The position numbers and the translations under genes are program-made. A stretch of 64,000 bases of DNA from Ectocarpus siliculosus (taxonomy: Eukaryota > Sar > Phaeophyceae > Ectocarpales > Ectocarpaceae). The notes under the pieces were generated by a model. The model was given only the letters and a program-made list of their open reading frames with translations, ran no database searches and was not told the DNA's origin. The stretch covers positions 5,301,772 through 5,365,771 of the forward strand of contig FN649742.1 in NCBI GenBank assembly GCA_000310025.1, in the 5' to 3' direction. Below, piece after piece: positions 35,999 to 60,680 of the stretch; within the stretch, counting starts at the first letter, position 1, and each line of letters starts with the position of its first letter.

Positions 35999-36250
35999 TC
36001 ACTCCGTTGGGGCCCTGTGGTGGTGGTGGGCGAAGGGTGGTCTGCTGCTGTATTCCTCCACATCTGTTGTCGTGGAGACGGCCTTGACCGCCGCGGACAA
36101 AGCCGCAGACACAGACGACACCGAGATCACGTCCAGTGCAGCTTCTGAAGGCGTTCTCGAAAATCGCGGCTTGGGGGAACGAGAATCGATAGGCGCTCCT
36201 GGCGATGACGCCGCTGATGAAGCTGCCGGCCATGCCGCTGCTGCTGCTGG

Positions 36251-36302
<52 letters not shown>

Positions 36303-36751
36303 CCTTGCGAGTTGGTGCCATAAGCAGGCGCTGGCGTCGTCACTGCCTTCGGCGGGCGTGTGTGAGTGAGACTGTGACTGTGAAGGTGAAGGCCTCGGGT
36401 ATTAACAACATCGGCATCACCACCCGTGCCACTGGCCGGCGCTTTCTCAAGGACCGCGGTTGTGGAGCCGGAGGCAACCACAAACACCGCATCTCCATCT
36501 CCGTCGCCGGACTTCGATCCGCTGTCGCCCAGGCCTCCACCTTCGCTGCCATCCCCGCCTTTCTTGCCCTTCTGGCATTCTCTTCCCTCCGCCGGGTGCT
36601 CTTCGGTGCCCTCACTGCCATCGCGATCGCCACTGCCATCGGCATCATCTTCGTCTTCGTGAACGTCGTCAACGTCATCAGTGAACGAGCTACCCTTGTC
36701 GTCATCGTCATCGTCCTCGTCACCATCATCATCATCACCGTCTTCTTCCTC
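35999..36751 (-). other. Phosphatase fusion gene, optional 3' exon: acidic and poly-Ala tail
   Basis: Open for 250 codons after a good acceptor (pyrimidine-rich, CAG) at 36752. It continues the Asp-rich tail of the previous exon in the same phase: ...DDDDDSE joins EEEDGDDDD. The previous exon must then end at 37353, using the GTGTGA that otherwise provides Val and the stop codon. The exon encodes an Asp/Glu block, a Gly/Ser block, a 15-residue Ala run made by a CTG/CAG repeat (36253-36299 on the plus strand), and ends PTE-stop at 35999. If not spliced on, it could be part of a separate short gene. Confidence 0.6.
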
Positions 36752-39700
36752 CTGGGACGTTGAAAGACCCGAGTGGACCGAGTGGAAACAAGACTTAAGA
36801 ACAACAAACACGTGGTGTATGTAGAGGTAGACACTGCTCAAGCAGCGCTCGTGCAGCACAGCAACGACGCGTGTACAACTCAAAACACAACCACCGAGAC
36901 TGGTCGTCCCGGTGGTTCGTTCGTCTTTGTTAACAACCTCGTCATCACCCTCTGACCTCTAGGTTGCGGGCATGGATGTCGCTTGGAGTGAAAAAAGCAC
37001 TCGCCATTTTGGAATCGAAAGTGGAAAGCACATTGTAGTGAGCAAAAGACAAATGAGGCAAGGCAAGGATGTGCTGATCAGCTCAACCTCTTTCGCGTTA
37101 AAGACCGAACGCAAGCAGGAAGGGTGGGGAATGGTGATACAATTCCACTCATGTACAACACATTATTAAACCCGTCAAGTGTAGACTGGCGCCCAGAAAA
37201 AACATGGGAGGAAAGACACACAACAACAAGGACATCCAAGCGAAAAAAAACGCAACTCCGCACATATATATGTTCGATTGGATTGCGACTGTAAGTGATC
37301 AACATACACACAAACCCCGCATCCTTATTCTAGAATGGTAACGTTTTCACACCTCCGAGTCATCGTCGTCATCGCTGTCGGAGTCCCCTGGCATGGACAT
37401 CCCCGACGGCCGCTTTTTCGTGCCAGCGTGGTTGAGTGTTTTTTGGAGACCCACTCCTCCTTCGTAGTAGCACTTGAGTCGCGCCGCAAAGCAGATGAAG
37501 TCCATCAACCCTGCAGATGTGAGCAACGCACAATGGGACGTGCAAACAGATGAAAAATCATACCGTACGTATGATACAACAGATAGGACCTCTACTTGTC
37601 TTGGCATGTATTTCTACAGCAGTTGCCCCCCCCCCCCTCCCTTGGCCAGCATCAAGAGGTATCGTACGGTATGCTACACTACGTCCAAGCTATTTATTCG
37701 ATTCACGTCATCTCCATTAAATATGTGTATCAAGGCTGGGTCCAGCGCTGCTACCCTTTAGACGTCGCTGCTGGTTGGCACGAAGAAGTCCTCTGCCGCC
37801 ATGTATGCCTAGACAGAGCTGAGCCAACAAAAACGACATGGTCGCAATGATACATATCCATCTATCAAACCATCAAACATGACACATGACACATGACACA
37901 TGACACACACACACCTATCTTGCCGTCGCAGTCCACGTCGACCGCCTTTATGCAGGCCTCAATCTCTCTCTCTTGCGCGTAGTCGTCCTGTTCATCGGCG
38001 TACTCCTCCAACGCAACTCCGTCGATGAACTCACTCCCGCGCTGATGGGATGTAATCGATGTGATCGATGGGTTTCAGATGCGAGACCGACCAAGCACGC
38101 CGAAGAATGCAATGCAGACAGACGGGTCAAAATCGGTGATATGTATCATATAGAACAAGACAGGCAGGTGCATGCCATGTTGACAGGCAAGGATGGGTTG
38201 GTGTGGTGGAACGTACACATCTTTCTCGGGTGCAGGCTAAGGATTAGAGGATTAAAGGATTTTCACGCTCCACGCTCCACGCTCCAGAGGCAAGCCAACA
38301 AGACAAGCACAGTAAAAACCCACTCTCAACTGCCCAACGTGATGATGAAACAAAACAAAACAAAACACAAGCACACCACACTGCTGCTTACTGGCAACAC
38401 AGCCAACATCTCGATTGACGTTGGGCACTGCAGCGCGAACATGCACCCCACGCATGAGGCATCCAAGAGGGTGAGCATGGATGATACAAGCCGCTACGCT
38501 TGACGCCACCAACCAAAATAGCTCGAAACGTGCGACTTGCAGTACTTCTCCTTCGCTATGCACCACGGCGTACGACTATTACAATACTTCATTCTCTCTT
38601 ACTCCTGTGCTGCTGTACTGTAGTGCTGTACCTGGTCCATGAGGGCGAAGAGAAGCTTGAGCCCCAGGATTTCGGCGTGCGTGAAGGCGCAGTCCTCCTG
38701 TCGTATCGCATTAAATCGCATCAAATCGCATCAAATCGTATCATGTCATCGCATGTCATGGCACAAAGGCACGCAGGATTAGAAAGATACACAGAAAAAA
38801 GAGGATGGCCACAGAAGAAGCAAACATATGTAGGCATTGATGATTGATTATGCTACAATGACGTCACATCCTGTCATCATGATCATGATCACGGAGGGAC
38901 GGTGTCCACGCCAGTTGGACCACCAACACGGTGCACATGTTAAAATAAAGGGTATCCTTCTGAGCAGAGACTAGCACTGTTTAAATGCGAAGAAAGCAAA
39001 AACGTTGTGGCATAAATCACGATACACGCAGGGAAACACGTATGTTAATAAAAACAACAAACTATGGGCAAACGACACAACAGGGCCTACACCCTGTTCG
39101 AAAAGCGACTTAGCTGGGCATACACAGATTCACAGCGTCAAATGAGCTCAGTTGATTGGTCAATGTCCACATTCACCCTGCCGTGTCCCAAAATACCCCG
39201 GTGTGTACCCTGCCACGGCTACTTTTCTCGAGCACCGTAGAAACCTTGATCGCAGCAAATGTACCCTGATCTGACGGTTCCTAATCCATATGCATAGCAC
39301 GAATCAATTGATCAATTTCTAATCCAACCATAGGATAGCAACCAAGCAGTAACCAAACCAACCATGGCTGGCACAGCACATTTCCGCTGGTAAAGAAACC
39401 GACAAGTTATGCAGAATGCGAGATACGAGTCACGCTCAGAACGCGACCGATCCAGCATGGTGGAAAGGTGGTAGGACTCTGCATGTTGCGGATGGATGTG
39501 TGGCGGCAAGGAGCTCGTGGCGGCGGAGCAGTGGAAGGACACACACACCACACACGACGAACGAATCATCATGGAAAAAATGAGCGTACTACCCTACCTA
39601 CAACACAGGAGGTTGGACGTGCCACAACATACCACAGACCCGCGCTGGAGCAGCGGAGGCTTTATGGACTGCACTCAGAACCCAATTCTGATGCTAGGCT

Positions 39701-42700
39701 GTGTGGGGTCTGAAGAGCATAGTACGTACAAGGCGTAGATGAATGTCGGCGTGGGATGGGTAAATAGACGTGTAATTCTTGCTCCGCCACTCGCTCCTTC
39801 CATCATGATTCGCTCGGAATGTATATGTCCTACCACCTTTCCGCCACCACGAGCTCGTGGTCACACATCCACCTCACACGACATATGCCTTCTTTCAACC
39901 ATGCTGGATCAATCGCGTTCTGAGCATGATGGCTCGTATCTCGCACACTTCGCAACTTGTCGGTTGCTTTCCCAACGGAAATGTGCTGTGTGCCAGCCAT
40001 GGTTGGTTTCGATCGGAATGAGTCAAGGGTTGGTTGCTGTCCTGCGGTTGAATATGAAATTGAAAAATTGATTCGTGCGATGCATATGGACACTGGTTCG
40101 GGAACGTCAGATCAGGGTACATTTGCTGAAATCAAGGTATCTACAATTCTGGAGACAAGTGGCCGTGGCAGGGTATACACACCCCCGGGGTATTTGGCAC
40201 ATGGCAGGGTGACACTGGATGTTGACCAATCAGCTGGGCTCGTTTGACGCTGTCAAAATGTTTATGCCCGGCTGAGTCGCTTTTCGACCAGGGTACACCT
40301 TGCCGTGTCGTTCGCCCCATGAAAGCTTTCAAGTTCGGCATAGTATAATGGTACGAAGTATAATGGTACATGGTATGGCAAAATGGTACAGGTAAACCAC
40401 CAACGCGATCCCTACGATAGAGGTACAGTACAACAGAGGTGTGTCGAACAACAGCCAAGACCAAACCAGTAATATAGTAATATAGTATAGTAACATTTCC
40501 AATCTGACATGTTTCGGAAAACTCTCATGAGACAGGGAGAGAACAGATACAGACGCAGGCAGAGCCAGCTCGATCAAATACTACTACAATAAACCTGCAT
40601 GAGGCAAACCTGCCCTAATATAGCAACTGCACGCGGTCTGATCTATCCCTATCCCTATCTATCTATCCATCTATCTCCTCGAGGAAGAAAATGTGACCCA
40701 ACTCATGTGACTCATCTCACCGCAAGAGTGCCCCTTCGAGTGAGAGTGGGCGGCGAGGGAATATTCTTCTCCTTCTCCTTGTCGTGGCCATCATAATCAT
40801 AGCCCACGCCTTGCACGCCTTTCTCGTTGTCCGAGGTCTGTTCCAAGGATGCCGATGGCGCCGTGGCGCTCGAGCCGGCTTCTTGGGGCAAAGTCGTCGT
40901 CGTTGATCTAGACGGTCACAACGTCGCAACCGGCAGAGACAAACACGCCACACCCACATAATCGGAGTCAGAACGCATCGAACCCGCCGCAGATTCGATC
41001 ATTTAATAATTCGGAACGAAATGTACGATGCTGTTCAGGCAGGAAAACCCCCAGAGCACCCACCGTCGTGAGGTGGCGAAAACAAACAACATGACACAGC
41101 AACCCCCTCTCTTCTCTTCTCTTCTCTTCTCTTCTCTTCTCTTCTCTTCTCTTTTATTCTCTTCTCTTCCTCGCACGACCTTACAAGGAACATCACATGA
41201 GTCAGTCGCTACAGTACGTCTCTCTTTTTTTATTCCCTCCGATCCAACCCTCCGGTTTCGTAAGCGACGTTTGGTGAAACAAACACTTGCAGCTGGCTTC
41301 TGCTGTCACGGAAAGTCCACAACCACGCGTGACGTATCTCCAGTCCAGTAACGCAGTCACGCGGAGCCACCATATGCATGTGTATACTTGTAGGCGTCTG
41401 CGAGGGGGCTAGGCTACACCGCGTGCTACATCACAAATCACGTCTCTTCCTGCCTCAAACACACAACATTTTCTGTGAACTACGATATTGAGAAACTAGC
41501 AGCCGGTAGTGCCAGTGGCATGGCGCCGGGTAAAGCCACACCACGCTGCATTGTACCAACTTGCATCCTCTAATAGTGAGCCAATAGCCCATTCGCTCGG
41601 ATAAAAAATGTACTACATACATATAGACGACCACACGGTTAGCTGTGCTGGGCAAGTTGAGAGATACGCATACAATACTGTACCTGGAATCAATCATCGC
41701 AGAGCCTCCAGACGCCGCTTGCTGAGGAGCATCATGAATCATTAATACGAGCATCGCCAGTGGAGTGTGAGTGAAAATAAAACGGGTACAGCGTGAGCGT
41801 AGAGCAAGTGTCAGCGTACAGATGGATGCAACGTCAACGCGGCGTGGGCGATAGCTGCCTAGCCTAGCCTAAGGGCTCACTTCGTGACCACGTCCCGCCA
41901 TCTCGAAACAAAGGTATCATAGGTATCACAGGTATTGTATCGCCTCGAGACAAAAGAAGTATATACTTACGAAGTAGTCTAGCACCGGATTTCGGGGGGA
42001 GGGGATCCCCACTTCTTCATGCTTCCTTGTCCTAGAACATTAACATGACGTGCTTCCTTGTACTACAACACAGCGTACGGAAAAACGAGCCGCACGATGA
42101 CTGGCGTCTAGGGACAAGAGCAAATCTGATAATAATGTAATAATTCATGACACACGACTAGGCCAGTCGGTCAATATTTCTAGTCTTCATACCTCTCCGT
42201 CAGCCTCGCCACCCAGGGTTGATCGTCGCCGGCCCTGCTGAGGCGATGATGCATCGTCGTCATCGTCGCTCTTGCCCTGGAGAGAGGTCGAGTGCCATGG
42301 CGCAGACGACTTCCCGAGCTTGCCAACGCCGCGACGAACACCAACATCGCCTGCGACGTTCGTTCAACGTTCGTTCAACGCAAACCCCACAGGGGACGGG
42401 CGCAAAACACCAGCAACCAAAGGTGAGTTTTGTGTACTGCTGTGTACCGTGTTGATGGCATCATGCACCACTTGGTGGATGGAGATACGCAGAGTGGCCA
42501 TAATGGACCAAGACCACGTTTGTCAGCTATCTACCTATCTACCAGTATTTAGCATATATGCATATACGTCGCAGCCCATCTGCGGAGGGCGCACGAAGCA
42601 CGCAACAGATTCGTCACGAAAAGTGATGTTGCACCAAGTCTTTCTTTCGAGCATACAGCACAACACAACGAGAGCAGCAAGGAAAACACCTGTTATACCG

Positions 42701-45700
42701 TGCACTTATACTTCGTATGCATAGCTTGCAGCCTCAATACCATCGCGGGCAACATAAACATGGACCTGCTGCACACCCCCTTAGACAGCACCGGCAACAC
42801 CTTGCACGGTACCTTCATTGCCTTGCAAAAATGGCATGTCACCAAGATCGCGTCGTGTGCACAGAGCAATACACATCACCAAGCGACCAGGACATGTCGG
42901 ATGTTGGACTCATTCGCCGTAAAACGCCAAACCAGAATCAAGACAAAAACAAACAAAAAATACAACAAACCAACCGACGGACGGACCTGATTGCGCCAAG
43001 CCCGGGGGGGGAGGCGGCGGGAACTTTCCGTTGTTTGAGGCGGAGGTGTTGGAAGAATGCCTTCTCGGCGACACGATGGACGTCTTCTTGCCGCCGCTGT
43101 TGGACCTGCTCTGTCCCACCCAAGGCGCCCCACGGGCCGCGATGTGAATGTGACCGGTGCCATCGCCTCCCTTGCCTATCCCTCCACCCTTTTTGTCGTC
43201 CCTTCCGAACACTCGGCCCGGGGGGGCCTTCCCGCCCCACATGGGAGGGGGCGATCCGGCCACCTACGGCAGGTAAGGAAAGAAGGAAAGAAGGAAAGAA
43301 GGATAGTATGTAGTCACTATCCGTGCGTTGTCGTGTGCCGTGAATCGCGTGCATAGGAGGCACATTTTGCGCCGGAGTGTTCTCGTGGAATTGTATGTAT
43401 AGCTGCGGCGGTGGTTGTCAGCGATACCGGTATGACACGGCATTGTGTTCTCCGCTGAACTGCTTGCTGCTGTACCAAAACCCTAGCCCTAAGGTCAAGC
43501 ATCAAGACATCAAGCAAGACGACCGACCGAGCACCTTGTCCACCCAGATGCGGCGGGCGAGAGCGGAGTCCTTTACCCTCGTCAGCTTGGAGGCCACCGT
43601 ATCGCTGCGAGTCCGCTTCGTGAGTGCTTCGAACACCTGCATGAACGGTATTTGCAATACATGAAGTACAACAAAGCCACGCCCGTAACATTCCACACCC
43701 GGCGTTAGCGTTAAGATGATGACAGGCAACCATAGCCATGATCATTACTGTGACCTTGACCATGCGTCGGTGGGTGAGACATCCAACTCCACAACCCATG
43801 CTGTTGTCCTAGCTATGGAGGGTAGGTTCAGCTCGTGCTTGTGCCACGCGGTCACGGCATTTTCATGCGTGGGGCATGTGCATTCAACAACAAAAAAATC
43901 GACGCACACCTACGCATCAACGCCAACGTGACTATTCGCCATGCCTGCCTGCAGCAGGTCTAAGAGCTCGGTGATCAAAGTGATCCAATCCAATCCAGGC
44001 AATAGACCTGATCGACTTCCAGGTCGATACCTTGTGTCACGTACTTGCCCAATTAATTTCATCATCTAGCTAAATTCAACACACTCACGTTGATCTTTTG
44101 CTTGGTACTGTTTGGCGCGCCGGCCGTGCTAGGGCTGCCCGTGGCCGCCTTCGCCTTTGCTTTGGACTCGATCGATGCCTTCATCTGAGACACGATGCCC
44201 CCTGAACCACTGCCGTTTCGAACGTGCAACTGGCGGTGCGACAGCAACGGCAACGAAAACAGAACCAAGAAGGGCCAAGTGAAACAAACAGCAGGGCCAG
44301 CAAACTCGCACGTGGTGCATCACGAACTAATTTGGACCACCCGACTTGCTGGCTGTATGCATGATGCATACATGAGCGCTCTGGCACGACCCCCAACCGC
44401 CAGTGTCGATCCGATGACTTAGGCTGCTTCAAACACTAATTGGCTAACTAGTCCATGCACACGCTCGGGGGTGAATCTGGCGGTAGTGGTAGTGTTTGTT
44501 CTATGTCAAATAAGGAAAATCGAGTGATGATGCCCGGAAAAATTCCACGGCGAGTGTGTTCCACGAGCCTGGAACAATGTAGTATCGCAAGTGTCTTCAA
44601 ACAAAAAAGGGGACCGATACACATCAAGACAACCAACACCAACACCAACAAGATCACGGGTCACTCAGTCACCCTACCAAACCGCCCACCGGGAAGGCAG
44701 CGAAATAAGCCGATGGATCATCATCCTACGTAAATGTTTGCTTGAGATGGCGAGATCGGGTTGCAGTTGCAATCGTCTAACCAACGCCACATCACCATGA
44801 GACGACGTGCTACCGTTGCTCTCCCTCCTGTCCATGAGTCCATTCACCAATCCATCCATCTGTCTGTGTCAGGTCTCACCTTTCGCCTCTCTGCCCGAGC
44901 CTTGTGTTCGAAGATGTTGGTGATCTGCATCACGGTGCTGCTGGGCTTTCCCATGTCAACCGGGAGAGGCGCCGCGTGTCCCGCTCCAGGCCCACCCCTC
45001 GCCGCGGGATCGAACCTGTTTCGAAGCTCACTCACCTGTCCACAAGTAAGACAAGTAAGGCATAGGTATCAATCACATGACGCGACACGTGTCACACACA
45101 TCAAAATACAGAATACGCCGATGACACTCGATAGCGAGTGCACCACACGCAAAACACACAACAAGGAAGTCATAGAAAGGTTGGTCTCGCATGACGCCAT
45201 CAAGTCAACTCAACACCAGGATAGACCAGGGCGTGGGAGCAACACCGAAACCGCATGAGAGCTATCTGTAATAGCACTCCTGCTCTGAGAAAGGGGATAG
45301 GGGATAGGCAACGTTCGTTCTGGTCGTATCGCATCGAGCGGATACAAGAAAAGCGCAAGGATAAAAGTCTACAGTTAGCCTTTCCACCACAGGCCCGGGG
45401 ATGCAGAGTCACTCCCCCTTCCCCCAGTCCAGCCCAGCCCAGCCAGCCCAGTCCTCACCGTGATCTTAGTGGTGGAGTGAACGAGCGAGCTCACGCTGGA
45501 GGGCGTGTTGGCCTTGGTGCTGAGCCTACTGACACCCTCGTCCTCGCACGACTCGATACGAGCGTTTAGGTAGTCGGGGTGCAACTCGTTGATCCTGGGA
45601 GTCAAGTCAAGTCAAGTCAAGTCAAGTCAAGTCAAGTCAAGGAAGTCAAAGAGAGTCAAGGGGTTTGGTTGGCTGGTTTCGTTTGCGTCGAATGTCTAAT

Positions 45701-48700: not shown

Positions 48701-51700
48701 GGGATACGCAAACTGGAAACGGAGAACGTGATTCGAAAGGGCTCGTCAACCGTTCGAAAGGGCTCGCGAGAAGTGAATGACCCGCTTGTGTTGGGAGTTC
48801 TCAACATTTTGCGGGCAATTTCATCTTGGACGGCATGATGCCTGGGATGGAAATCCAGCAGCAGCAGCAGCAGCAGCAGCAGGGCAAGAGGGAGCGCTTG
48901 TACAGCCAATACGACCGCTTACTGCCCATCGCTGACTTGAACTTCAACGTCACTCATTCCGACAGAGCAAACCAAGCGTCCCATCCATCCACCTTCTCCT
49001 GTCTGTTCGGCATACCCAAAAGAAAAAAAGATCCACTACAAGTTGAGTTGAGCTGGTCTTCTCCAGCGCTTGAAAATTTCGCCCGCAAAATGTCCCCACG
49101 TGCTTGGCATCTCTCTCCCTGCCATATGCATGGGCGCTGCTACGTTGTTATATATATATCTCTCTCTCTCTCTCCCTCCCTCCCTCCCCCCCATCTCTCT
49201 CACCGACTTCGCGCTTCTTGAGGGCCTTCTCGAAATGTCGGTAGTAGCCATCCTCTTGTACGGCGTGCGCCCGGATAACACACATGAGGTGGTTATTGTC
49301 GAGAAACCTCCTGACCGCCAGGTATCCGAACGCCACGCTGCACCCTCGCAGCCGGTTGAACTGAAAGGTGCTGTTCAACAGACTGTCCAGCTCCTGAGAA
49401 CCGCAACGCCGTATAGTAACACGGATCGTCTCCTTTGTTTCAGCAAAGGTCCCAAGGAAGGTCCATATATAGAAGCCGAAATCAAACCACGCTGACTAGT
49501 CTAATGATTCGATTTCGGCTTGTATAGGTCTCAAGTAACCTAACCTACTACCTTCGAGACAACCAACGGCGATGCAATCTGTGTTGAAAAGTGACGAAGT
49601 GAGTGAGTGCTGTTGGTGACTGACTCTTTTCTTTTCGTGCCGAAACAAAACCCACGACAAAATACATAGCTCCAAGCATCTAACTACCACATTACCGTAG
49701 TAGCTATGTACGGTATTGCCGGATATATACCGCAAACCATAGAAGAGGAGAGCAATAGCGGCAGCATCTCCAAATTGACGAGAGGTAAAGAACAAAACGA
49801 ACGAAAAATGAACCAGGGCGTCAACAACCTCAAGAGAATTACCTCCAATTGACAGGCCTCCTCCGGTTGGAGGCATAAATGTATGCAGTATCTACCAGAC
49901 CGGAACGACACGAGTGCGACAAAAACTGCAACTAATCGTCGCGAGTTTGAGCCTCTACGCATGACAAGAACCCTTTGCAAGAACTTTCTTTTTCTTTTCT
50001 TTCTCCTCATTCTCCACTTTTGACTTTCGACTCTTGATTCTTCACCTGGTCGGAGAGCGACTCGATGTTGGTGACTCCAGGATCGTCCGAAGGGTCCGCC
50101 CAGAGCAAATCGCACAACAACCCCTCCATCTCCGGCTCCGCTCTGATGCATTTGCATCATGCATCGTGCACCACAACACCACCGGTAACGAAGTTCAGAC
50201 AGAGCCCCCCCCCCCCCCCACGAACCACAGAGGGCGACAGGGGAAACAACAAGGAATTGGTGAACGTGGTGGGTGAGATTTCGGCGGTGCTAGCCCAAAA
50301 CTAGGAAGACAATAAATGCACCACGGCAGCGGGAGAATACATGATCCACACGGGGTCAATCCAAGCCATTTGACAAACGGTGCTACAACGCGCGGGCAGA
50401 GATCTCCAGAAACACCAAGCAATGCCGGAGCTAGCGCTTAAGTGTTGGGCAGCTTTAGAAGGTCGATTCGCGGGTTCATATGTTTCAAACAACGTCTCCG
50501 TGTGCTGCGGTACAGCTAGCTGTAGATACCTGCGGTTAAGAGCGGCGATCTGGTCCAAGCTCGTGAGGTCTGGCGAGATGCCACCGTGGGTACAGAAATA
50601 TCTCCCATGGTCGTTGGCGATCACCGCGCAGAGAGGCATGAGCTCGAAACATCGCAAGAAGCGGTAGTAGACCGGCAGCCCGTACTTGGACTTGCACTCA
50701 TCCTGTAGAGCGTGCGGCCGCACGATCGTCCAGTAGACAACACACGACCAAATCGTCAGCGTCGATCTCTTGCTTGCAGTCTCAACACGCGATGATAAGT
50801 ACACGAGTACAGCAGTACAATTACAAGCGGGGCAGTGCGGACAGGCTGTTTCGTCTCAACTTCAAAGGCAATTTGGACCAAATTGATACAAGTACTTCTT
50901 TGTCACGCCGTACCGCACGGAGAGACGGGCTACGGGCTTGCGATAGAAAACAATGGTCTCATTCAAAAGAGAGATATGCACATGCACCGGTATAGGTAAC
51001 TAACTTTACCTTGAATCCGAAGTGCGTGGTAAGGCTTCGGCACTCGTGATTGCCGCGGATAAGGTGCACCTTCATCGGGTGTGCCACCTTTAGCGCCAGA
51101 AGGTACAGCAGCACCTCGCAAGAAAACTCCCCGCGATCTACGTAGTCTCCCAAGAACAGATAGCTGTTGCCACGTCCGGTGGAATGAGAACGAGTGTGAG
51201 GGTGAGTGTTGGCAAGCGGCGAGGGGTGAGAATAGTATAATAAAGAGTGCTGCACCCAGAGGGGGATTTGGCGACACGGTCGCATGCTCCCTCCCAAACA
51301 GAATACTGTACCCCGGTGCTGTCTGCCTATCGTAGTAGGTGTTGTCAAGGCCTAGTGACCGTACATCTAGCTTCACTACTAGGCTTTCGTTCTTGCCCTC
51401 GATCTACAGTACCAGACCAAACCCCAGAAAGAAAAATTAATTCACCCCACTACCGTCTCACCCACAGCAAGACAACGCATGCACTAAGGTAACATGTGAG
51501 GTGTTGCACAATTAGTATACTAGTATTAGTATAGTATTGGACTACGTACGCAAGAACACAACACGCCACCAGCACGGTAAAGTAAAGCGCACCTTGCTCC
51601 GTCACGAGGTGTTCCACAATTTTCAAGCATGGAGATGAGATCAAAGAACTGCCCGTGCAAGTCTCCCACGATCTTGATGGGCGCCTTCAGCTCAAGGGCG

Positions 51701-54700
51701 TTGGGCTCCGTCTTGAGGATCTCCAAAGCCTGCCCAGCACATCCACCCGTTCGTCAACAGCGTTATTTGAAAGTTGCAGAGAAACGGAAACGCCAGTAAA
51801 ATGCAATCCGTGTGATATATCGAAAATGAAACCACGCGCAAACTGTGCTCTTCGTGGACGGACGCCGCTGGTGACTGTTGACTGTTGACATCGTTGGCGG
51901 CCTCGCGATCACAAAAAAAAAAAAAACAGTACTGCAACGCTCGCTGCTTTACAGTACTGTACTGTACCGGACAAAGCTTGCAAAGCCAAAGATAGTGCTG
52001 CCACCAAACACAACGCCAATCCNNNNNNNNNNNNNNNNNNNNNNNNNNNNNNNNNNNNNNNNNNNNNNNNTATACAGTCGTAGGCCCTCTATAGGGCGGG
52101 TATGCGCCAGCCCGATTCACCCGCCCTATACAGGGCACCCGCCCTATATAGAATCTGGCCTGTATAGGGCGCAGTGCGCCCTATACAGGGTTTGAAATAT
52201 CCTATATAGGGCGGGTACCCGCCCTACTGATGGTTATGAGGGACCTTTGACGTGATAGAGGAGGAAAGGAACGTCTGTCTCTGCATCAGTGGTGTAAAAG
52301 ATAGCCCAACTAGCAACAATGTGTCTCGGTAAGATGCGCCGTGCATTCAGAAGCACGCCCCTCTCAGCGAGCCGTAAAAAAGGTACACATGGCTGAAATA
52401 AATGTAGCCACACCGTACTCTACAGCGGCTGCCGAAGTTTGTGGTATTTCGTCCGTTTGGTGTGCCGTGGTCAACCGATTACTGTAGCGTACTGTATGTT
52501 CCGAAAAACGAAGCCTTACTTTTTTTGTTGTCATCACATGAAACCAGCGCTTGCAGCATTTCTACCTGAAAGAGGCCCGATCCGGGGCTATATGGAAGCT
52601 TGCAGCTTGCGACACACACCAAATGACACCATTCAAATGAAACGCGAAGGGGGGAGTATTGTCGGCGGTGGCGAAAATGCCGACTCAAACGAAAACAAGA
52701 AATGAAAGGGGGCAGAAAAAGGAGAGAAAGAGGACAATAATAAGCATCCCATACGACGCTGCCCTATTTTTGCGGTACCGAAGCGCTTCTCGCTGACAGA
52801 CACGCACACCGCTGGACTGCATTCAGGATGGCACATTTACGACATGCTCGCACGGTGTGATCTCTCCTCCTTACTTTAGGCCCCTCACGCAAAGCGGTAT
52901 AGCACCGCTGCACGAGGTCCAAGAACCAAACCCATATCCTCGCTCAAAATAACTCCCTAACTTAGGGTATGCTGTGCGGTAGGGGTGTGCCGTGCTGCTG
53001 CTGCTGCTGCGAGGTGTGTGTGTTTGCCCAGCAGGGCAGGGCGGGACTGTGTGACCGGCCCTATCGAGGTCTCCAGGGGTTCACACCCGCCCTATATAGG
53101 GTCGGTACCCCTATAGGGCGGGTGGTCCTGTCTGTGCCAAGGGGTTTCACCCGCCCTATAGCGGGCACCCGCCTTATATAACCCGCCTTATAGAGGGCCT
53201 ACGACTGTAGTATAAAACGAGGGCCTACGACTGTAGTATAAAACGTCTTGTTTGCTGGCAACTGACTGGCCCACCTGGTCGATGAGGAAAAGGGCTTCCC
53301 CCAAGGTAATAGTCTCCTGCCGTTGGAAGCGCTCCGACAGAATCTCGGGCTTGAATGATGTAATCGATTATCCATCGATCACACGGACACAAAAGCAACA
53401 ACAGCACATTGCCGTGCAGCAAGCACCGACGAAAGAGTGGACGGTGTAAGGGTGGTTTCAGCACAAAAAAGCGGACTTGTCGGGTGGGGGCATCTCCCTG
53501 GGCTTTTGTATCGATACAGCCACAAAACTAAAAAATGGACAAGACGTGCCACTCAAGCTAAAACAACGACATAAAGTACACTAGACTAGGGTACGTGGCG
53601 CCCTCAACCCTGCCAACAGCAGTGCAATACCATAGAGGCAGGCAGGCACTGCACAGTTCCACAAATACCTTTGGATTACGCATCGTCCTTTCTACTTCAC
53701 CCGACAATAATAGGCGGGGATGCCAGTTTCCCCTCCATGACACAGCTCTAGTACTAGAATCGCGTTCGCACTACTGTACATGTACACTGATAGATCCCTC
53801 ACCCACTGTGCTACACCCTCCCCCCCCCCCCTCACAGCATGAAACTTGTACTAGAAACAATGATATTTATGGGCATTGGTACGCCCGCTCGCGCTCGATA
53901 AAAGATAGTGATGAATGCAGTCCATGACTCTCTCAACCAGCAAGCCACCAATGACTGCCGCCTACTCCATAGGGCCGACAGAAAAACGGACAGCAAGGCA
54001 ACTCAACGCGATGCCAGTCGTGATCCCTATTAAAAGTGTGGTGTGGAGATGTATCCTACCTTGAGGTCATCCATAGACGGCATCTCCGTGTCGAGGAACT
54101 GTCCTAGCTTCTCCCCCTGCACGACCGTGCTCATGCTGTAGAGCCCTTTGCCCATGGTCTGGACCATTCTCTTCGCCGCCTGCAACATGCCATGCCACAC
54201 GCCATACCAGACGGCTTCGTGTCAACTTCACGCCGATCGTCACACCATCAGTAAAACTCACAGCAGCAGCAGAAGCAGCAGTGGGCTACAAAAGTCTTTT
54301 TCTTTCATGTCCCTCTCCAAAATCGATCACTGCACAAAGATATACCACAGATGCACCTGGCATGACGAGGAGCGTGATTGTCGGCGACGGACGTAAACCT
54401 ACATGGTAGAAAGAATCAACACCAGACTAACTGTCGACGCCAGGAGTGCGCACTGTAATACCAGCGCTGCTGTTATAACCTTGCAAGAAATCTCTCTCAC
54501 CTTCCACGACACTCGTTTGGCTTTGTCCATATGCTGACTGCAGAAGTAGTCGGAGGATATGCGTGCTCGCCCGCAATCCGTGACTAAGCAGCTGTGACCG
54601 CCAAACAAAAACAAACAATCAACAACATCCACCAGGGTTCAAGGTTTACACGTTCGGCAAGATAGCATAGGTAGCCGCGTCGAGGGACACAGACTACAAG

Positions 54701-57700
54701 GGCGACATCCTAACTTGGAAGCAGTGCACTATAATACCTGCGGTATGCTTCTGCTTTGGAATGTGGTACGCATGTAACTGCTGTGAGACATGCTAGCCGA
54801 CAGCTAGCTTTGTTCTGTTCTACATGTCTTGCGGTCAAACTGTACGACTCCCTAGCGGCAGGTTGTGAGTTTGATTCGCTCTGCGGATGGTTTTGTTTCT
54901 CGCAGGACGTATATCCAGCAATCTGTAGTAGGATGCCATCTACGTCGCGAGTAATACATTTCGGTTTCATAGTCGACGAAGGAAAGGAATGGATGGCTGA
55001 ACCATAACCCTTCTCGCGATAAAAACTAAGGCAAGCACCGCAGGGGGAAAGGTGGGGCACTGAACCAAGCAACAAAAAATGAAAAAAGTTCCTCTTGTGT
55101 GACCCCGGCTGATATGTCAGATATATACTGTACTGTACACCGAAAGGCGTGTAGACTGGCGCCAGAACACATACATGGGACGAACACACGCATATCAAAC
55201 TGCATTGGCCCGCACGAACGTATTTGGTTGAGAGCAATCCAGAAAACCCCAAACGTCGGCAAAGCTATGCACATGTACCTAGACACTACCACGATACGTC
55301 AAAGAATTGTTAAACTAACTCACCAGAGTCCACCCTGCCCTTCCTCGTCGCTTTCCATCATTACGCTGTCTGCTCCCGCTCCATCCTCCCCAGCGGGCAC
55401 GCTAACCCTAAGAAAGTTGGCCAACCGGTTTTCTGACGCCCCCCCCCCTCCTCCTCCAGCCCCACCAGCACCAGTACCACTACCACTACCCCCGCCGTCC
55501 TCGAACAAGGTCTGTTGTGTAAAGTAAAGCACAGCAGTGGCACAGCGAGGTGAGGAACAAATGCAAGTACACCCTAGGTTACAGGAGGCCCCGAGGAGGA
55601 AGGTGCTAATGGGGGTGGTGGTGGTGGATATTGCGCCGACAGCAGTCCAGGCGATGGGGTCATGGTGATACTGCTGTGCAACCCGTGTGCGATAATCAGC
55701 GGCTGTGGCGAGGAAGGCTGTGGATAGCACTGCACTGCTCATTTACATACTCCTCAAGTCTTTGCCGCTGCGTCGCTGCAGCAGTACAGCATTACTGCTA
55801 CAAGTATCGCCCTGAGGGCGAAGCAGCTGGGCATGGCACAGCTCACCACGCGCAAACAAGTTGTGCGTGTACGTACCCTGCCCGAAGCATGTATGCAACT
55901 TGTTGAAACCCTCCCCTAAATTGCTCCAACCTAGTCTAGCCTTCAAACCCTTCGAAACTACCGCCTGTTATCGATGCGGTACATCTCGGCCCAACCCCAC
56001 GAAACGACATGCAAACAGTAACAGTTGACTTGACAAGTTGCATTATACCGACACTTTTTTCTCGCCAAGCGAACGCACCAACAGAGCGGCTTGCATGCTG
56101 CTAAGCTGCTAAGCTGCTGGTGTGTCAATTACTCCGTACAGCAATACCTGTGGGTTGCCCGTGCTTGCAGGGCTGGGACTGGCCGTGAGCGTGGGTGATG
56201 TCGCTGGCCTCGGCGAAACGGAGACCGGTGGTGGCATCAGGCCCGCGTCGCCGTCGCTGGACGAATGCACGTACTCATGGGGGCTTGGGATGGGAGACGC
56301 AGGGACCGCCGGGAATGCTGTCGGGGACTCTGAATATCGCGCAGTCGAGTAGCGGGGAGGAGAGGAGGATGTGCGAGGGCACCGAAACAACCAAAGCAAC
56401 GGAAGACATTCAGATGACATGAGACGTGACCAAGCTTCAAGCCAGTAATATCTACCGATGCTATTCATATCCTGCATATCCTACCGACAGACAGACACGA
56501 TGGTTGGGTAGTAAATCGCGCCATGCACTGGTAGTAGCTGCGAGCAGAAGCGAGACATTCTTGAGCGGGACACAGAAAGGTCACTTGCCGGTACAGTACA
56601 GAGGTACACCGAAATTTGAAACAATTAAGCAGCTATGGTTCCTTGAGTGCAGACTTGCCGCTGGATCGTACCTCGCGTAGCGTACAAAACGACAATACAT
56701 TAGTCTGCCAACTATCACAACTTATTTTCAAGTCGACAAGTCATTCTTGCATTCTTACAACATACGGTACTCTATATAGCGGTTACAGATACATGTCCTT
56801 GCAGGAAAACGTAAGGCCAACGTGGACTCAATAGGACACACAAACGGGGATCAACAGAGCCTCGTTCGTCTGTGCTACGGCATCGGATGAAAGCATCGGA
56901 TTGAAGCCGAGTAACTGTGCAGCGTGGAAACCTGGGGGAGCACATGACTTCATCACCTCAAACCAGTGAGGGGCTGTTCCTCCCGACTCCGGACCAAGCA
57001 ATAGCATTAGCTTTAGTATTTTTCATTAACTAGAGGAGCTCTGCGAAAACGAGGGTCTCAACGCCGAAATGAGCCCTTTTCTTGGTCCGATATTTTTAGC
57101 ATCACCTCTTTCGGGATCAATAAAAAGCGAGCGCTCAAACCGCGAGTACCCAAGGTTAGGTACGTGTCAGATACCCCAAATTGCTACTTGTACTTCATTA
57201 TTGTACACTCGGTCAAATCTGTTTGTGCGGGGTGCCTATGTGCCTATACCCACCGAGAGAGGGCTCGAGCGGCCAACCTACAACAATAAACCACATACAA
57301 TAGTTCCTTTCTTGACCGGTAAAAAACTTCGAGTTTCAATTCGCACAATCATCGCGATCGGTGGTTGAGCCTGCCTGCTGCAGGTTTCTGCGCACACGGC
57401 GCCTCTGCTATGACACACCACATCAAGGGCTCAAGCGACTCGAGAAGGGATGCGGTTGAGTGTAGGCGGCAATCTGGAGCGCAAACAGAAAAGGTCACCA
57501 CAAAATGATCGCGGTCGCGATCTTAAGTTGAGAGAGTCCAAAAATTGGGCCTCGCGACGACTTGAACTCGGTCTGTTGAGCAACTAAAAACCAGCGGTTA
57601 CTAGGTAGATTTGGAGAGAAAAGCAAGTTGCTTCCTTTAGAGTAAAACCCTAACCTTCCTTCCACACGCCCTCTGTGCCAGGGGTCGAACTGAAGAAGGG

Positions 57701-60680
57701 TCATGTCATGTCCTCTCATCGGTGGAAAAGGCCCGTGGTCGCCTTTTTCCTCTACGCACGTATGTATCATATGATTATCCGGGCTGACTTGTTTGTCGCT
57801 CCGGAGTACCAGGTATGCCGTAAAATAAGGTATGCATATGCTAAGTTTTTGGAACTTCGAATTTAGCAGCTGGAATTTGCAACTGGCTTATGTGGCTCCG
57901 TACTTTATGGTTGATGTTGACGGACGGAGTTCTGAGCAACTCCACCGCTCCCTGAGGGCGTGTCTTAACGTCCCTTTTCTGGACAGGGAACAGGGAACAG
58001 GGAACTCGGAATTATTGTCTAATTGGCTGGCCACACAAAAATAACTTTCCTGGAAACAAGAAATGCCACACACGTTTTCCCTGTTTGAGGTAGTTACGCC
58101 GCACAAAAAATTTAAGGAACAAGTTCATTAAAATCAGCCAACAGACTATAGGGAACGTGGAACACATGCTCTTCGGTGGCAATTCAGGACGTGGTGGGAT
58201 GTGTGTGATCACTCTCGGGCATGTGGCTGCCACAGGCTGCATGCTACCAGTTCAAGCAGTATACAAGCATTGCCGCCATCATTACGAGTCTCGCTTGGAC
58301 TCGCATGCAAAAAAAACGGCGGCGGATGGTCGCGAAGCCATTGTATGGGGGAACATAAAGTGTCAAAGAAACGGCAAGCTGCCATGGGCCACAACTCAAA
58401 AAGCAAGCCTTCCAGAGCACTGCTGTCGAGGGTGCGGATTGCATGACGAGCACCGCCTGTTCCTGCCGATACCTAGCACATGTATTTCATGTGCGCTCGT
58501 CAACAGGTTCCTTCGAAACCTACACCACCTCCTCCTTCCTCTATCCCCATTCGTCTTTCTGCATCCGATGGTTGTATTTGTTACCTTTGAGGACATGCGG
58601 GCCGCACGGGCGCGCTCAAGTGTTCCATGTTCCCTGGAAATGAGGTGTATGTCAAGACACAACGACACGGAACAGGGAACAGGGAATTCCGAGTTCCCTG
58701 TTCCCTGTTTGGTCTAGAGCGTTAAGACACGCCCCGTGAGACTGCTCTCCACGCGGGAGGGTATTGTTCCTACTTTAGCCACTTGCCAAGGTTTGTTTGG
58801 CAAAACCTGCAACAAGTGCACGAGAAGAACACGTTGTATGCATAGCGACCAGCGCATTATGAGAAGCACGCTGTCGTCATCTATCTCTTGTCAGAGGATA
58901 CAATCGTACCCTATTTCTACGGTAGTACTGCTGTATCGTGGAGTGACTGACTGACTGACTGACTTGTTCACTCACCGCATGTGTGAATCTCGCAGCAGCT
59001 GGGGCAGCAAAGAGATCCGTCGCAGAAGAGATCCCCAACACACCTGATGCATCACCACCACCACCACCACCAGTATCATCGCCGTCAACACAAAATAGGA
59101 TTACACAGCAGAGACGGAACATAGGCAGACAAGAAATTAATTGCCAGGGTTCTCACAAGTCTAGTACGAACGCGAACGGATGAGATATCGTATCGACAGC
59201 ACTACAGCAGTAGTAGTCAGAAAAGGCCGAAAACAACGGGCTGTGTGCCTCGAATCGTCGTGTTACACAATACCACGTACATTTCATGATACATGTGGTG
59301 CTCGTTTCATGTCCTCGTGAGCAAGAAACTCGGAGCGGTGCTCGGATGACAAACGTGAAGGACATACACAGCGAAAGTGCTAAATGCCACGTGCATTGGT
59401 GGCACTTTACTTTCGTTTTGGTCACTATTACGTGTATGCATGTAACATTTATATTTTAGATGCTGGGCGTTGTTTTGAAGCAGACGACAAGAAAAAAATC
59501 TTCATCGCCTCCCCACGCTGGTTCATGTTGTATGCAAATGCACACGCTCTACTAAAAAGTAAAAGTGGTCTTCATATTAAGTGAAGAGTGGGTGGGTGAG
59601 TGAGTGAGGCTAGCATAGGCGATAGATATTATAGTCTTCGCTCTTTCTCCCGGACAGCAGTGCGTCCGGCTTGACAGCTTGACAACAGTGGCACCAGGGG
59701 AAATGGGCTTCCTTCCGACTTCGTTCGGCTTGAGGATGGGAGGGAGGGAGGGAGGAACATGGTTACGGAATCTACCTCGGGACTAAGTTACAACGGAATT
59801 TATACGACTAAAAGACTAGATTAGAATGCGCACCATAAGCTCGTCAGAAAAAAGGCGGCATGGAGTCAGACTAGACCTATAGTCTACAGTGACAGCATTG
59901 GACTGCGAAGAGACAAGCCGCCACTGCTTTGCTCTCTGCCAGGCTTAGCCTTCCCTACCGATACTGCGACGGTTAGTGCCGTAACCACAACCACGAAAAA
60001 GAGCCACAATTACTTGGCGCCCCAGTCCGGCAACGAACTGCTGCTTTCGTTCATGTTGTTTACGTTTTCGGATCAAGACAATCAAGAGCTAAGTTTGACA
60101 GACAGCCTTGGAGACACACCTGTTGGCGCTCCTTAAGGGGCATGCCGCCAAAATAGTGTTGACAAAATAGTGTTGAGCAGCACTGTTATTTCAACGACAC
60201 GAGGCGCGGCAGCCGTAATGCGTACACTCTCCGGCTCAACCTACAGCAGTAGCTCTTAGCTGTGCCCCTTTCTCTCTCAACCAGTTCAGAGTTCGGAAGC
60301 AAAGAGTGCGAATAATGACCCGCACAACAGCTGCAGCAGCAGAGAACCTGAGCGGGTGTGTGGATATGACCTGATGTACCGAAGGTGTAGAAGATCAATC
60401 TTTAGGCAAGAGAATCCACGAGTAACGTCACTCTCTGGTGGCAAGGGAAGCGGCTGCTGTGAAGGCTGCTAACGACAACAACACAACAAGCCATGACTCA
60501 CGTTGAGCACACCAGGTGTCCGCAGGGCAGCAGCCTAGGAACAAGGTTGTTATTTCCTTTGACCTGGTAGTTGAAATACAGATAGCAGTTTGGGCAGCTC
60601 GTGAGATCCGCGTCCCCCGCCACCGGCGTCAGGCCTTGGGCCGCGGTGCCCATGGCCCTTGATCCCTGACGCTGCGCCAT
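35999..60680 (-). CDS. RING finger - calcineurin-type Ser/Thr phosphatase - EF-hand fusion protein
   Basis: One reading frame can be followed through 29 exons on the minus strand, every junction in phase, giving about 1,221 residues (stop at 37347-37349) or about 1,470 if the acidic 3' exon is spliced on. Order: RING-HC finger (29-76), Ser/Pro- and Gly-rich spacers, Cys/His knuckle (207-226), helices (237-301), PP2B catalytic domain (about 302-608), Ser-rich region (609-1103), EF-hand pair (1104-1190), acidic tail. The predicted activities are ubiquitin-ligase partner binding plus calcium-controlled dephosphorylation of Ser/Thr. The start is the ATG at 60680-60678, with GAA before it and GCG after. 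Plain calcineurin A is about 500 residues and has neither RING nor EF-hands, and PPEF/RdgC enzymes have EF-hands but a different catalytic type. The phosphatase is certain. The link to the RING exons rests on phase and absence of stops, so two adjacent genes remain possible. Confidence 0.85.
36253..36299. repeat. CTG/CAG trinucleotide repeat in the acidic 3' exon
   Basis: About 15 CTG units on the plus strand. Read on the minus strand in the exon frame they encode Ala. Such tracts are length-variable between individuals. Confidence 0.85.
37347..38697 (-). other. Phosphatase fusion gene, EF-hand pair
   Basis: Exons 38632-38697, 37915-38041 and 37347-37510. The second EF-hand loop is rebuilt across an intron as [12 protein letters not shown] (residues 1160-1171): Asp at 1, 3 and 5, Gly at 6, Ile at 8, Asp at 12, a canonical calcium loop. 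The first ([20 protein letters not shown]) keeps the helix pattern but lacks the ligands and is probably a structural partner. EF-hands on the same chain would let calcium act directly, where ordinary calcineurin needs a separate B subunit. The domain is followed by a basic stretch and an Asp/Ser run before the stop or splice. Confidence 0.85.
39064..40321. mobile_element. Foldback-type element with arms of about 520 bases, in a phosphatase gene intron
   Basis: The left arm (about 39064-39585) and right arm (about 39790-40321) are imperfect reverse complements through most of their length. Shared blocks include AACGACAC near the ends, TCGAAAAGCGACT, TGATTGGTCAA, ACCATGGCTGGCACA and GATCCAGCATGGT. 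The spacer between is about 200 bases. Many mismatches and small gaps suggest an old copy. No transposase frame was found, so it is probably a non-autonomous foldback DNA element. It lies wholly in the intron 38698-40720. I could not identify a convincing target duplication. Confidence 0.75.
41107..41172. repeat. TTCTC pentanucleotide repeat
   Basis: About a dozen TTCTC units in the intron between phosphatase exons 40907 and 41684. No coding effect. Confidence 0.9.
45598..45641. repeat. GTCAA pentanucleotide repeat beside a phosphatase exon
   Basis: About eight GTCAA units next to the exon at 45459-45594. On the minus strand the repeat (TTGAC) lies immediately before the acceptor. Confidence 0.9.
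46321..46675. repeat. ACGA and CACTC simple repeats
   Basis: An ACGA/ACGG tetranucleotide run at 46321-46361 and a CACTC run at 46644-46675, both in phosphatase introns. Confidence 0.85.
48856..49200. repeat. CAG run and TA/TC/CTCC compound repeat in phosphatase introns
   Basis: Nine CAG units at 48856-48882, and TA, TC then CTCC runs at 49147-49200. The second touches the donor of the exon at 49204-49393. Both are noncoding on the gene strand. Confidence 0.85.
52023..52070. other. Assembly gap, 48 N
   Basis: A run of 48 N directly at the left terminal repeat of the element at 52071-53244. The palindromic, repeated ends of that element are a likely cause of the failed join. It lies in an intron, so no exon is affected. 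The true length is unknown. Confidence 0.99.
52071..53244. mobile_element. Short inverted-repeat element rich in CCCGCCCTATA palindromes
   Basis: The left end begins right after the run of N with a block containing CAGTCGTAGGCCCTCTATAG. The right end carries the reverse complement (TAGAGGGCCTACGACTGTA), so these are terminal inverted repeats of about 30 bases. Inside both ends the motif CCCGCCCTATA or its complement occurs about ten times, often as the palindrome CCTATATAGG. At the right end a 26-base unit is duplicated exactly in tandem (53193-53218 and 53219-53244). The middle has only short frames with no match. Likely a non-autonomous DNA element in the intron between 51729 and 53275. Its outermost left base may lie in the gap. 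Confidence 0.7.
54501..56329 (-). other. Phosphatase fusion gene, linker and Cys/His knuckle exons
   Basis: Exons 56148-56329, 55324-55511 and 54501-54591. The first is Ser/Pro-rich, entered in phase 1 from the RING exon with an intact Glu codon. The second opens with a Gly-rich run (about 20 residues), then [16 protein letters not shown] and an acidic end, leaving in phase 2. The third completes a Cys codon and reads [20 protein letters not shown], giving C207-x4-C212-x10-C223-x2-H226, a plausible single-zinc CCCH knuckle similar in spacing to half of a B-box. RING plus B-box-like order would recall TRIM proteins, but I would not call a true B-box. Confidence 0.6.
57956..58734. mobile_element. 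779-base inverted-repeat element (MITE-like)
   Basis: A perfect 15-base terminal inverted repeat, GGGCGTGTCTTAACG at 57956-57970 and its complement at 58720-58734. Just inside, both ends carry GGGAACA-type repeats in opposite orientation, extending the inverted similarity to about 55 bases. At the right end a 16-base perfect hairpin arm pair (58671-58686 and 58694-58709) surrounds a 7-base loop. An open frame inside (58157-58717) matches no family. Probably a non-autonomous DNA transposon in the phosphatase intron between 56329 and 58976. No clear target duplication was found. Confidence 0.75.
58976..60680 (-). other. Phosphatase fusion gene, RING-HC finger (exons 60502-60680 and 58976-59043)
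   Basis: Exon 1 runs from the ATG and ends in ...CGHLVCS plus two bases. Exon 2 begins with the base completing Thr, then Cys. The junction falls inside the zinc-binding motif and restores it. Joined residues give C29-x2-C32-x20-C53-x-H55-x2-C58-x2-C61-x11-C73-x2-C76, a canonical RING-HC pattern, with flanking [13 protein letters not shown] typical of these domains. RING fingers bind E2 ubiquitin-conjugating enzymes. More cysteines follow (C77, C82). The two exons are separated by a 1.46 kb intron (59044-60501) in which I see no other coding signal. Confidence 0.85.

Follow-up and report, generated by a model that had tools for sequence, protein, structure and literature searches.

Calcineurin, the textbook calcium-activated phosphatase, depends on a separate EF-hand subunit, and plant KEG-type proteins join a RING to a kinase. 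EF-hands in the same chain as a PPP catalytic domain are described for the PPEF/RdgC enzymes, which belong to the PP5/PPEF/PP7 branch, are widespread and have been reported in oomycetes, and for Bsu1-type phosphatases in which EF-hands replace Kelch repeats, with one stramenopile case in Nannochloropsis gaditana (PMC8249667, in the sections available); the apicomplexan EFPP, a large PPP with an EF-hand motif, forms a subfamily of its own (PMC8785970, likewise seen as an excerpt). EF-hands on PPP domains are already known, then, and a RING on a PPP domain was not met in the literature searched, in so far as those texts were available. Here we describe a predicted gene of the brown alga Ectocarpus siliculosus, lying in a 64,000-nucleotide stretch of contig FN649742.1 (positions 5,301,772 to 5,365,771 of the forward strand; hereafter the window, from whose first letter positions are counted), which appears to place a RING, a PP2B-like phosphatase and a pair of EF-hands in one polypeptide.

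Rebuilding the minus-strand chain from 60680 to 35999 exon by exon gave 29 exons separated by 28 GT–AG introns (271–2,646 b), with matching phases throughout, and a protein of 1,452 residues whose single stop codon stands at the chain end. A previous reading, made from the letters of the window and hereafter called the sequence-only reading, had proposed a stop-free, phase-matched exon chain from the ATG at 60680 to the EF-hand exons, in which a RING motif and an EF-hand loop are each completed by splicing; this was reproduced at every junction, the exon 1/exon 2 junction completing the RING (..LVCST from the first exon, CVGDLF..CPSC from the second) and the exon 27/28 junction completing the second EF loop. 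With a paralog (below) as guide, the start of exon 5 was moved from 54537 to 54591, which adds 18 residues, completes a zinc knuckle and brings the refined model to 1,470 residues, with exons as follows.

60502..60680, minus strand: exon 1, start ATG and first half of the RING; homologous to paralog exon P1
58976..59043, minus strand: exon 2, second half of the RING; paralog P2; codon score not best in frame
56148..56329, minus strand: exon 3, Ser/Pro-rich linker; weak acceptor, boundary uncertain
55324..55511, minus strand: exon 4, Gly-rich and acidic linker; weak acceptor; weak similarity to paralog P3
54501..54591, minus strand: exon 5 (refined), zinc knuckle CLVTDC..FCSQH, spaced as in paralog P3; codon score not best in frame
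54060..54179, minus strand: exon 6, linker ahead of the phosphatase; corresponds in position to paralog P4
53275..53349, minus strand: exon 7, helix opening the PPP fold
51593..51729, minus strand: exon 8, GDLHG motif
51010..51163, minus strand: exon 9, GDYVDRG and GNHE motifs
50530..50702, minus strand: exon 10, HGG motif
50046..50142, minus strand: exon 11, CDLLWADP motif
49204..49393, minus strand: exon 12, RGCS and RAH motifs, calcineurin A-like
48531..48603, minus strand: exon 13, SAPNYCD motif
47924..48019, minus strand: exon 14, end of the catalytic domain
47141..47249, minus strand: exon 15, 11-residue motif common to the window copy and the paralog
46707..46826, minus strand: exon 16, low-complexity linker
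46178..46239, minus strand: exon 17, linker
45459..45594, minus strand: exon 18, 13-residue segment with a counterpart in the paralog
44880..45035, minus strand: exon 19, linker
44089..44229, minus strand: exon 20, linker
43535..43636, minus strand: exon 21, linker
42987..43263, minus strand: exon 22, Gly/Ser/Pro-rich linker
42193..42350, minus strand: exon 23, linker
41684..41721, minus strand: exon 24, 38 bases, uncertain
40721..40907, minus strand: exon 25, linker
38632..38697, minus strand: exon 26, first helix of the EF-hand pair; counterpart in the paralog
37915..38041, minus strand: exon 27, EF loop 1 (degenerate) and opening part of EF loop 2; counterpart in the paralog
37353..37510, minus strand: exon 28, remainder of EF loop 2 and last EF helix; counterpart in the paralog
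35999..36751, minus strand: exon 29, acidic tail with poly-Ala, closed by the stop codon

Codon use was scored with a model built on 23 open reading frames taken from a separate 200 kb of this genome; the frame of the gene model came out on top in 27 of the 29 exons, and failed to do so in two short Cys-rich ones, exons 2 and 5. What lifts this chain above chance is a diverged paralog on contig C483 in which RING, zinc knuckle, phosphatase and EF-hand pair recur in the same order, all on one strand.

C483 636771–634723: RING, split over two exons (P1, P2)
C483, between the RING and PPP exons: zinc-knuckle exon (P3), then the short exon P4
C483 632640–626247: PPP exons; phosphatase and 11-residue motif reach down to ~625.8 kb
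C483 ~623.5 kb: INEMHP
C483 620.5–618.4 kb: EF-hand pair

The catalytic domains of the two copies are 53% identical, paralog exons P1 to P12 join into 490 residues free of stops, and in 12 of the 13 paralog exons modelled the codon score favours the model frame, RING exon P1 being the odd one out. Domain queries were run against the whole 189-Mb genome: that with the phosphatase leads to C483, which is also the sole other match of the window RING below E 1 (E 0.009) and, with the limit set at E 1, of the EF pair (E 0.004). The paralog RING in turn matched, besides itself, the window RING alone (E 0.085), and among the 27 matches listed for the paralog catalytic domain those extending past its residue 176 fell at C483 and C17 only. 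Simple arithmetic puts the chance of a random match within 10 kb on that C483 strand at ~3e-5. The similarity of the two RINGs was equalled by 0 of 2,000 shuffles, and that of the linkers, mainly the zinc knuckle, by 4 of 2,000 without the Gly run and 7 of 2,000 with it; ordered homology between the copies starts at the RING exon.

Because the diverged paralog repeats the domain order, the three domains very probably belong to one polypeptide, a claim drawn from genomic sequence and paralog comparison, with the mature mRNA predicted from these. For the locus as a whole, the best explanation is a single gene for a modular phosphatase of ~1,470 residues, with EF-hand control in cis and recruitment through the RING and zinc knuckle, which we consider reasonably probable. 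What the sequence shows directly is which domains are present, how they are ordered, the catalytic residues, and the return of that order in the paralog. The paralog order, and calcineurin A as best structure match, support the proposal of the sequence-only reading that a RING, a calcineurin-type phosphatase and EF-hands share one chain; the claims of that reading on calcium sensing and ubiquitin transfer come out weakened, for the reasons given below. That reading would have given way had RING protein and phosphatase always been separate genes in orthologs; in the one paralog compared, from the same genome, the two again stand together in the same order.

The RING is of the C3HC4 type (residues 29–76), with all eight ligands kept (C29 C32 C53 H55 C58 C61 C73 C76) and the same pattern in the paralog. 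Many RINGs lack activity, and we hold E3 activity here to be only slightly favoured. A serious if less likely contender treats the RING as a structural or dimerization module devoid of ligase activity, which would leave a phosphatase with calcium control in cis. It gains from the weakness of the window RING, in which an Asn lies between cysteines 1 and 2 and the last cysteine is followed by another Cys, and which as a fragment falls under the Pfam cut-offs (best 20.7 vs 25.2 bits), the shortfall that weakens the proposed ubiquitin transfer; it loses from the retention of the eight ligand positions in both copies and from the paralog RING, which clears two cut-offs (zf-RING_UBOX 31.3 vs 25.2; zf-C3HC4 24.2 vs 21) and whose nearest solved structures are RNF4 and TRIM32.

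Between RING and phosphatase lies a zinc knuckle absent from the sequence-only reading (residues 207–226, C-x4-C-x10-C-x2-H), reading CLVTDC..FCSQH in the window copy and CKVEGC..VCPMH in the paralog. No Pfam family exceeds its cut-off over the knuckle in either copy, and the whole linker is without any match. An EsV-1-7 identity was considered for it and is unsupported, the weak Pfam matches being to Zf_WRKY19 (13.7 vs 27 bits, paralog) and CxC6 (14.5 vs 27.5, in a 30-residue window fragment). EsV-1-7 Cys-rich repeats are themselves abundant genome-wide, with 150 scored of 880 candidates, vs 0 of 14 control genomes, and the family is described as expanded in brown algae in the available part of PMC7457493, so that these repeats by themselves already make a brown-algal genome likely.

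Several observations weigh against a single continuous chain. A null was built by seeking an in-phase two-exon link, with the weakest link junctions as thresholds, in random 4.4-kb stretches of the genome (80 planned, 72 scored, 8 skipped for N); such a link was present in 54 of the 72, so that phase match alone is no evidence, and phase matching was rejected as proof of fusion. Exons 3 and 4 have weak acceptors, equalled by 27% and 19% of random AGs, which renders these boundaries uncertain. In the paralog the P3 acceptor is also weak, the P1 donor scores 3.8 (under the lowest training donor, 4.4), P4 was selected partly for a phase fit of the kind that the null finds cheap, and a phase clash between P12 and P13 shows that the paralog model is one exon short; the paralog frame also hits a stop shortly past the EF pair, unless a further intron follows. 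The zinc-knuckle/linker query matched the window locus alone across the genome (4 of 4 rows), and in the comparison of flanks the paralog has just 1.2 kb of sequence on its upstream side and 5.9 kb on its downstream side. Finally, unspliced sequence runs into a stop within a few codons of the RING exons in both copies, and an in-frame ATG stands ahead of paralog P3, features that leave two adjacent genes some room.

Such an arrangement, in which neighbouring same-strand genes for a small RING protein and a PP2B–EF-hand phosphatase were duplicated as a pair, we regard as improbable. The stops just past the RING donors, the ATG ahead of P3 (in the window the frame is opened by an ATG at 55742) and the cheapness of phase matching would all suit it, but the paralog would then have only ~550 b from the RING stop to the next ATG, and the RING coding part ends in good donors in both copies (equalled by 0.8% and 2.1% of random GTs). 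The linkers, moreover, are weakly similar between the copies, and the flanks compared contain no collinear homology, their four matches (E 0.002–0.009) being out of order. More doubtful still is a separate downstream gene for the EF-hand exons, as might be read from the 2.0-kb intron ahead of exon 26 and the ~480 residues of mostly low-complexity linker between the domains: the paralog keeps post-catalytic motifs and EF pair in the same order and on the same strand within ~7.5 kb, and the codon score is best in frame for every one of linker exons 16–25.

Within the single predicted chain, the EF-hand pair occupies residues ~1108–1180 of the refined model (Pfam match at 1098–1157 in the first model). 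Two points lower confidence in it: EF-hand_7 scores 26.0 bits in the full window protein, under the cut-off of 30, and EF loop 1 of the window copy is degenerate, with ligands missing and no acidic residue at position 12 (the paralog loop 1 reads DRGGKNFITRDD). As fragments, the window pair reaches 31.9 bits and the paralog pair 36.2, both above that cut-off. The canonical loop, loop 2, has Asp at position 12 in both copies (DADTDGKVGLSD in the paralog), a substitution that lowers calcium affinity. It is this Asp in place of Glu, together with the degenerate loop 1, that detracts from the calcium sensing first proposed. The domain search suggested with that proposal recovers the Metallophos domain and, as a fragment, the EF pair, and leaves the window RING and the full-length EF match below cut-off. 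Calcium control of the phosphatase is plausible though weak from these predicted binding loops, and on balance we lean towards a calcium-regulated enzyme.

The phosphatase itself was detected as Pfam Metallophos at residues 300–514 of the first model (4.2e-34). In refined numbering it spans 323–569, is PP2B-like and carries a complete set of PPP catalytic motifs (GDLHG 323, GDYVDRG 352, GNHE 384, HGG 437, RGCS 504, RAH 529, SAPNY 565), which are conserved in the paralog; given one polypeptide, we predict with high confidence that it is active. Among the matches listed (60 of 96), calcineurin A chains lead the solved structures, at ~252–275 bits per stretch, with PP1 next at 208 at most; one calcineurin A chain with two aligned stretches sums to 376 bits. 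Judged by these structure-match scores, the predicted catalytic domain probably has PP2B as its nearest PPP class. The local alignment to calcineurin A stops at query residue 378, and past the catalytic core it detected no similarity; the calcineurin B-binding helix of calcineurin A lies beyond that point. At the place of this helix both copies have the same 11-residue motif, and because of this motif and the lack of similarity past the core a separate calcineurin B partner seems less likely. The least probable of the alternatives, a PPEF/RdgC-type phosphatase with a RING added, would share the position of EF-hands C-terminal to the PPP domain, but the catalytic domain scores best against calcineurin A and next against PP1, and none of the 60 of 96 matches listed is named as PP5, which stands beside PPEF in the phosphatase grouping of PMC8249667 (in the part available).

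When human calcineurin A was used as query, only the two predicted fusion loci, C15 and C13 gave matches reaching to query residue 205 or beyond among 36 rows. By their signatures we take the C15 exons to resemble PP4, those of C13 PP6, those at C24:0.55 Mb PP2A and those of two C8 loci PP1. No canonical calcineurin A locus was recognized with this query, the matches on C2, C10, C12, C34 and C24 2.3–2.7 Mb being left unclassified. Since the C-terminal part of the query was reached elsewhere just on C15 and C13, the two predicted fusion loci may encode the only PP2B-like enzymes of this genome, several PPP loci being unclassified. For Ectocarpus, a calcium-sensor survey names calmodulin, centrin, LC4 and DC3, and calcineurin B does not appear in the passage available (PMC4415241). 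Searches of a viral collection (best 80 of 102 loci) and a prokaryotic one (30 loci) returned distant PPPs only, with at most 43% identity over the best segment, and the single row obtained with the tail-motif and EF queries against these 110 viral and prokaryotic loci was for the tail motif, at a level expected by chance (E 0.96). The best viral match is a PPP phosphatase 35% identical over 21–304, on an A+T-rich viral contig that is possibly from a giant virus.

As for function, the C-terminal EF-hand pair probably regulates the PP2B-like Ser/Thr phosphatase within the same chain, and with this pair in cis the enzyme may do without a separate calcineurin B. Through its N-terminal RING and zinc knuckle the phosphatase could recruit an E2 enzyme, a partner for dimerization or a substrate, and the likely effect would be that a calcium signal dephosphorylates a client and alters either the ubiquitination of that client or the turnover of the enzyme itself; we infer from the domain content a dual phosphatase–ligase function. 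A bolder version, which we consider unlikely, is that brown algae lost stand-alone calcineurin and rely on a two-copy, self-contained family with its own calcium sensor and ubiquitin ligase, by which a client would be dephosphorylated and marked for removal or stabilization.

Other features of the window were recorded alongside. The 2.6-kb second intron contains, at ~57950–58750, an element with 25-nt perfect inverted repeats (57989–58013 / 58685–58709) that looks like a miniature inverted-repeat transposable element, and the length of the intron may be due to it. Within intron 7, the segment 52023–53200 has a run of 48 N, and copies of a TATAGGGCGGGT-like motif recur near both ends of that segment. 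On the plus strand, 1–33000 has several long open frames, up to 849 codons, belonging to other genes.

No RING–PPP–EF-hand protein is described in the literature searched, which comprised titles and abstract openings, with most subscription papers and the general protein databases outside its scope; annotated orthologs may exist unremarked. If the prediction is true, a PP2B-like enzyme that carries both its own EF-hands and a RING would be another route coupling calcium, phosphorylation and ubiquitin, in a lineage with independently evolved complex multicellularity.

Set beside known systems, the predicted protein is nearest to calcineurin A, its best structure match, with which it shares the PPP motifs including RGCS, RAH and SAPNY; it differs in the 11-residue motif past the core, the EF-hands in cis and the N-terminal RING and zinc knuckle. 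With PPEF/RdgC it has in common a PPP domain plus EF-hands, but those enzymes fall in the PP5/PPEF/PP7 branch, whereas the catalytic domain here matches PP2B best, and we know of no RING in them. Plant KEG-type proteins likewise join a RING to an enzyme of phosphorylation, in their case a kinase rather than a phosphatase and of unrelated origin. The word “ring” has 0 occurrences in the main text of PMC8249667, and the part of PMC8785970 available does not mention a RING for EFPP, which is likened to the present protein by description only, as a PPP with an EF-hand. The EF-hand Bsu1-type enzymes, finally, also add EF-hands to a PPP domain of the PP1/PP2A/PP2B branch, but do so on a Bsu1-type catalytic domain.

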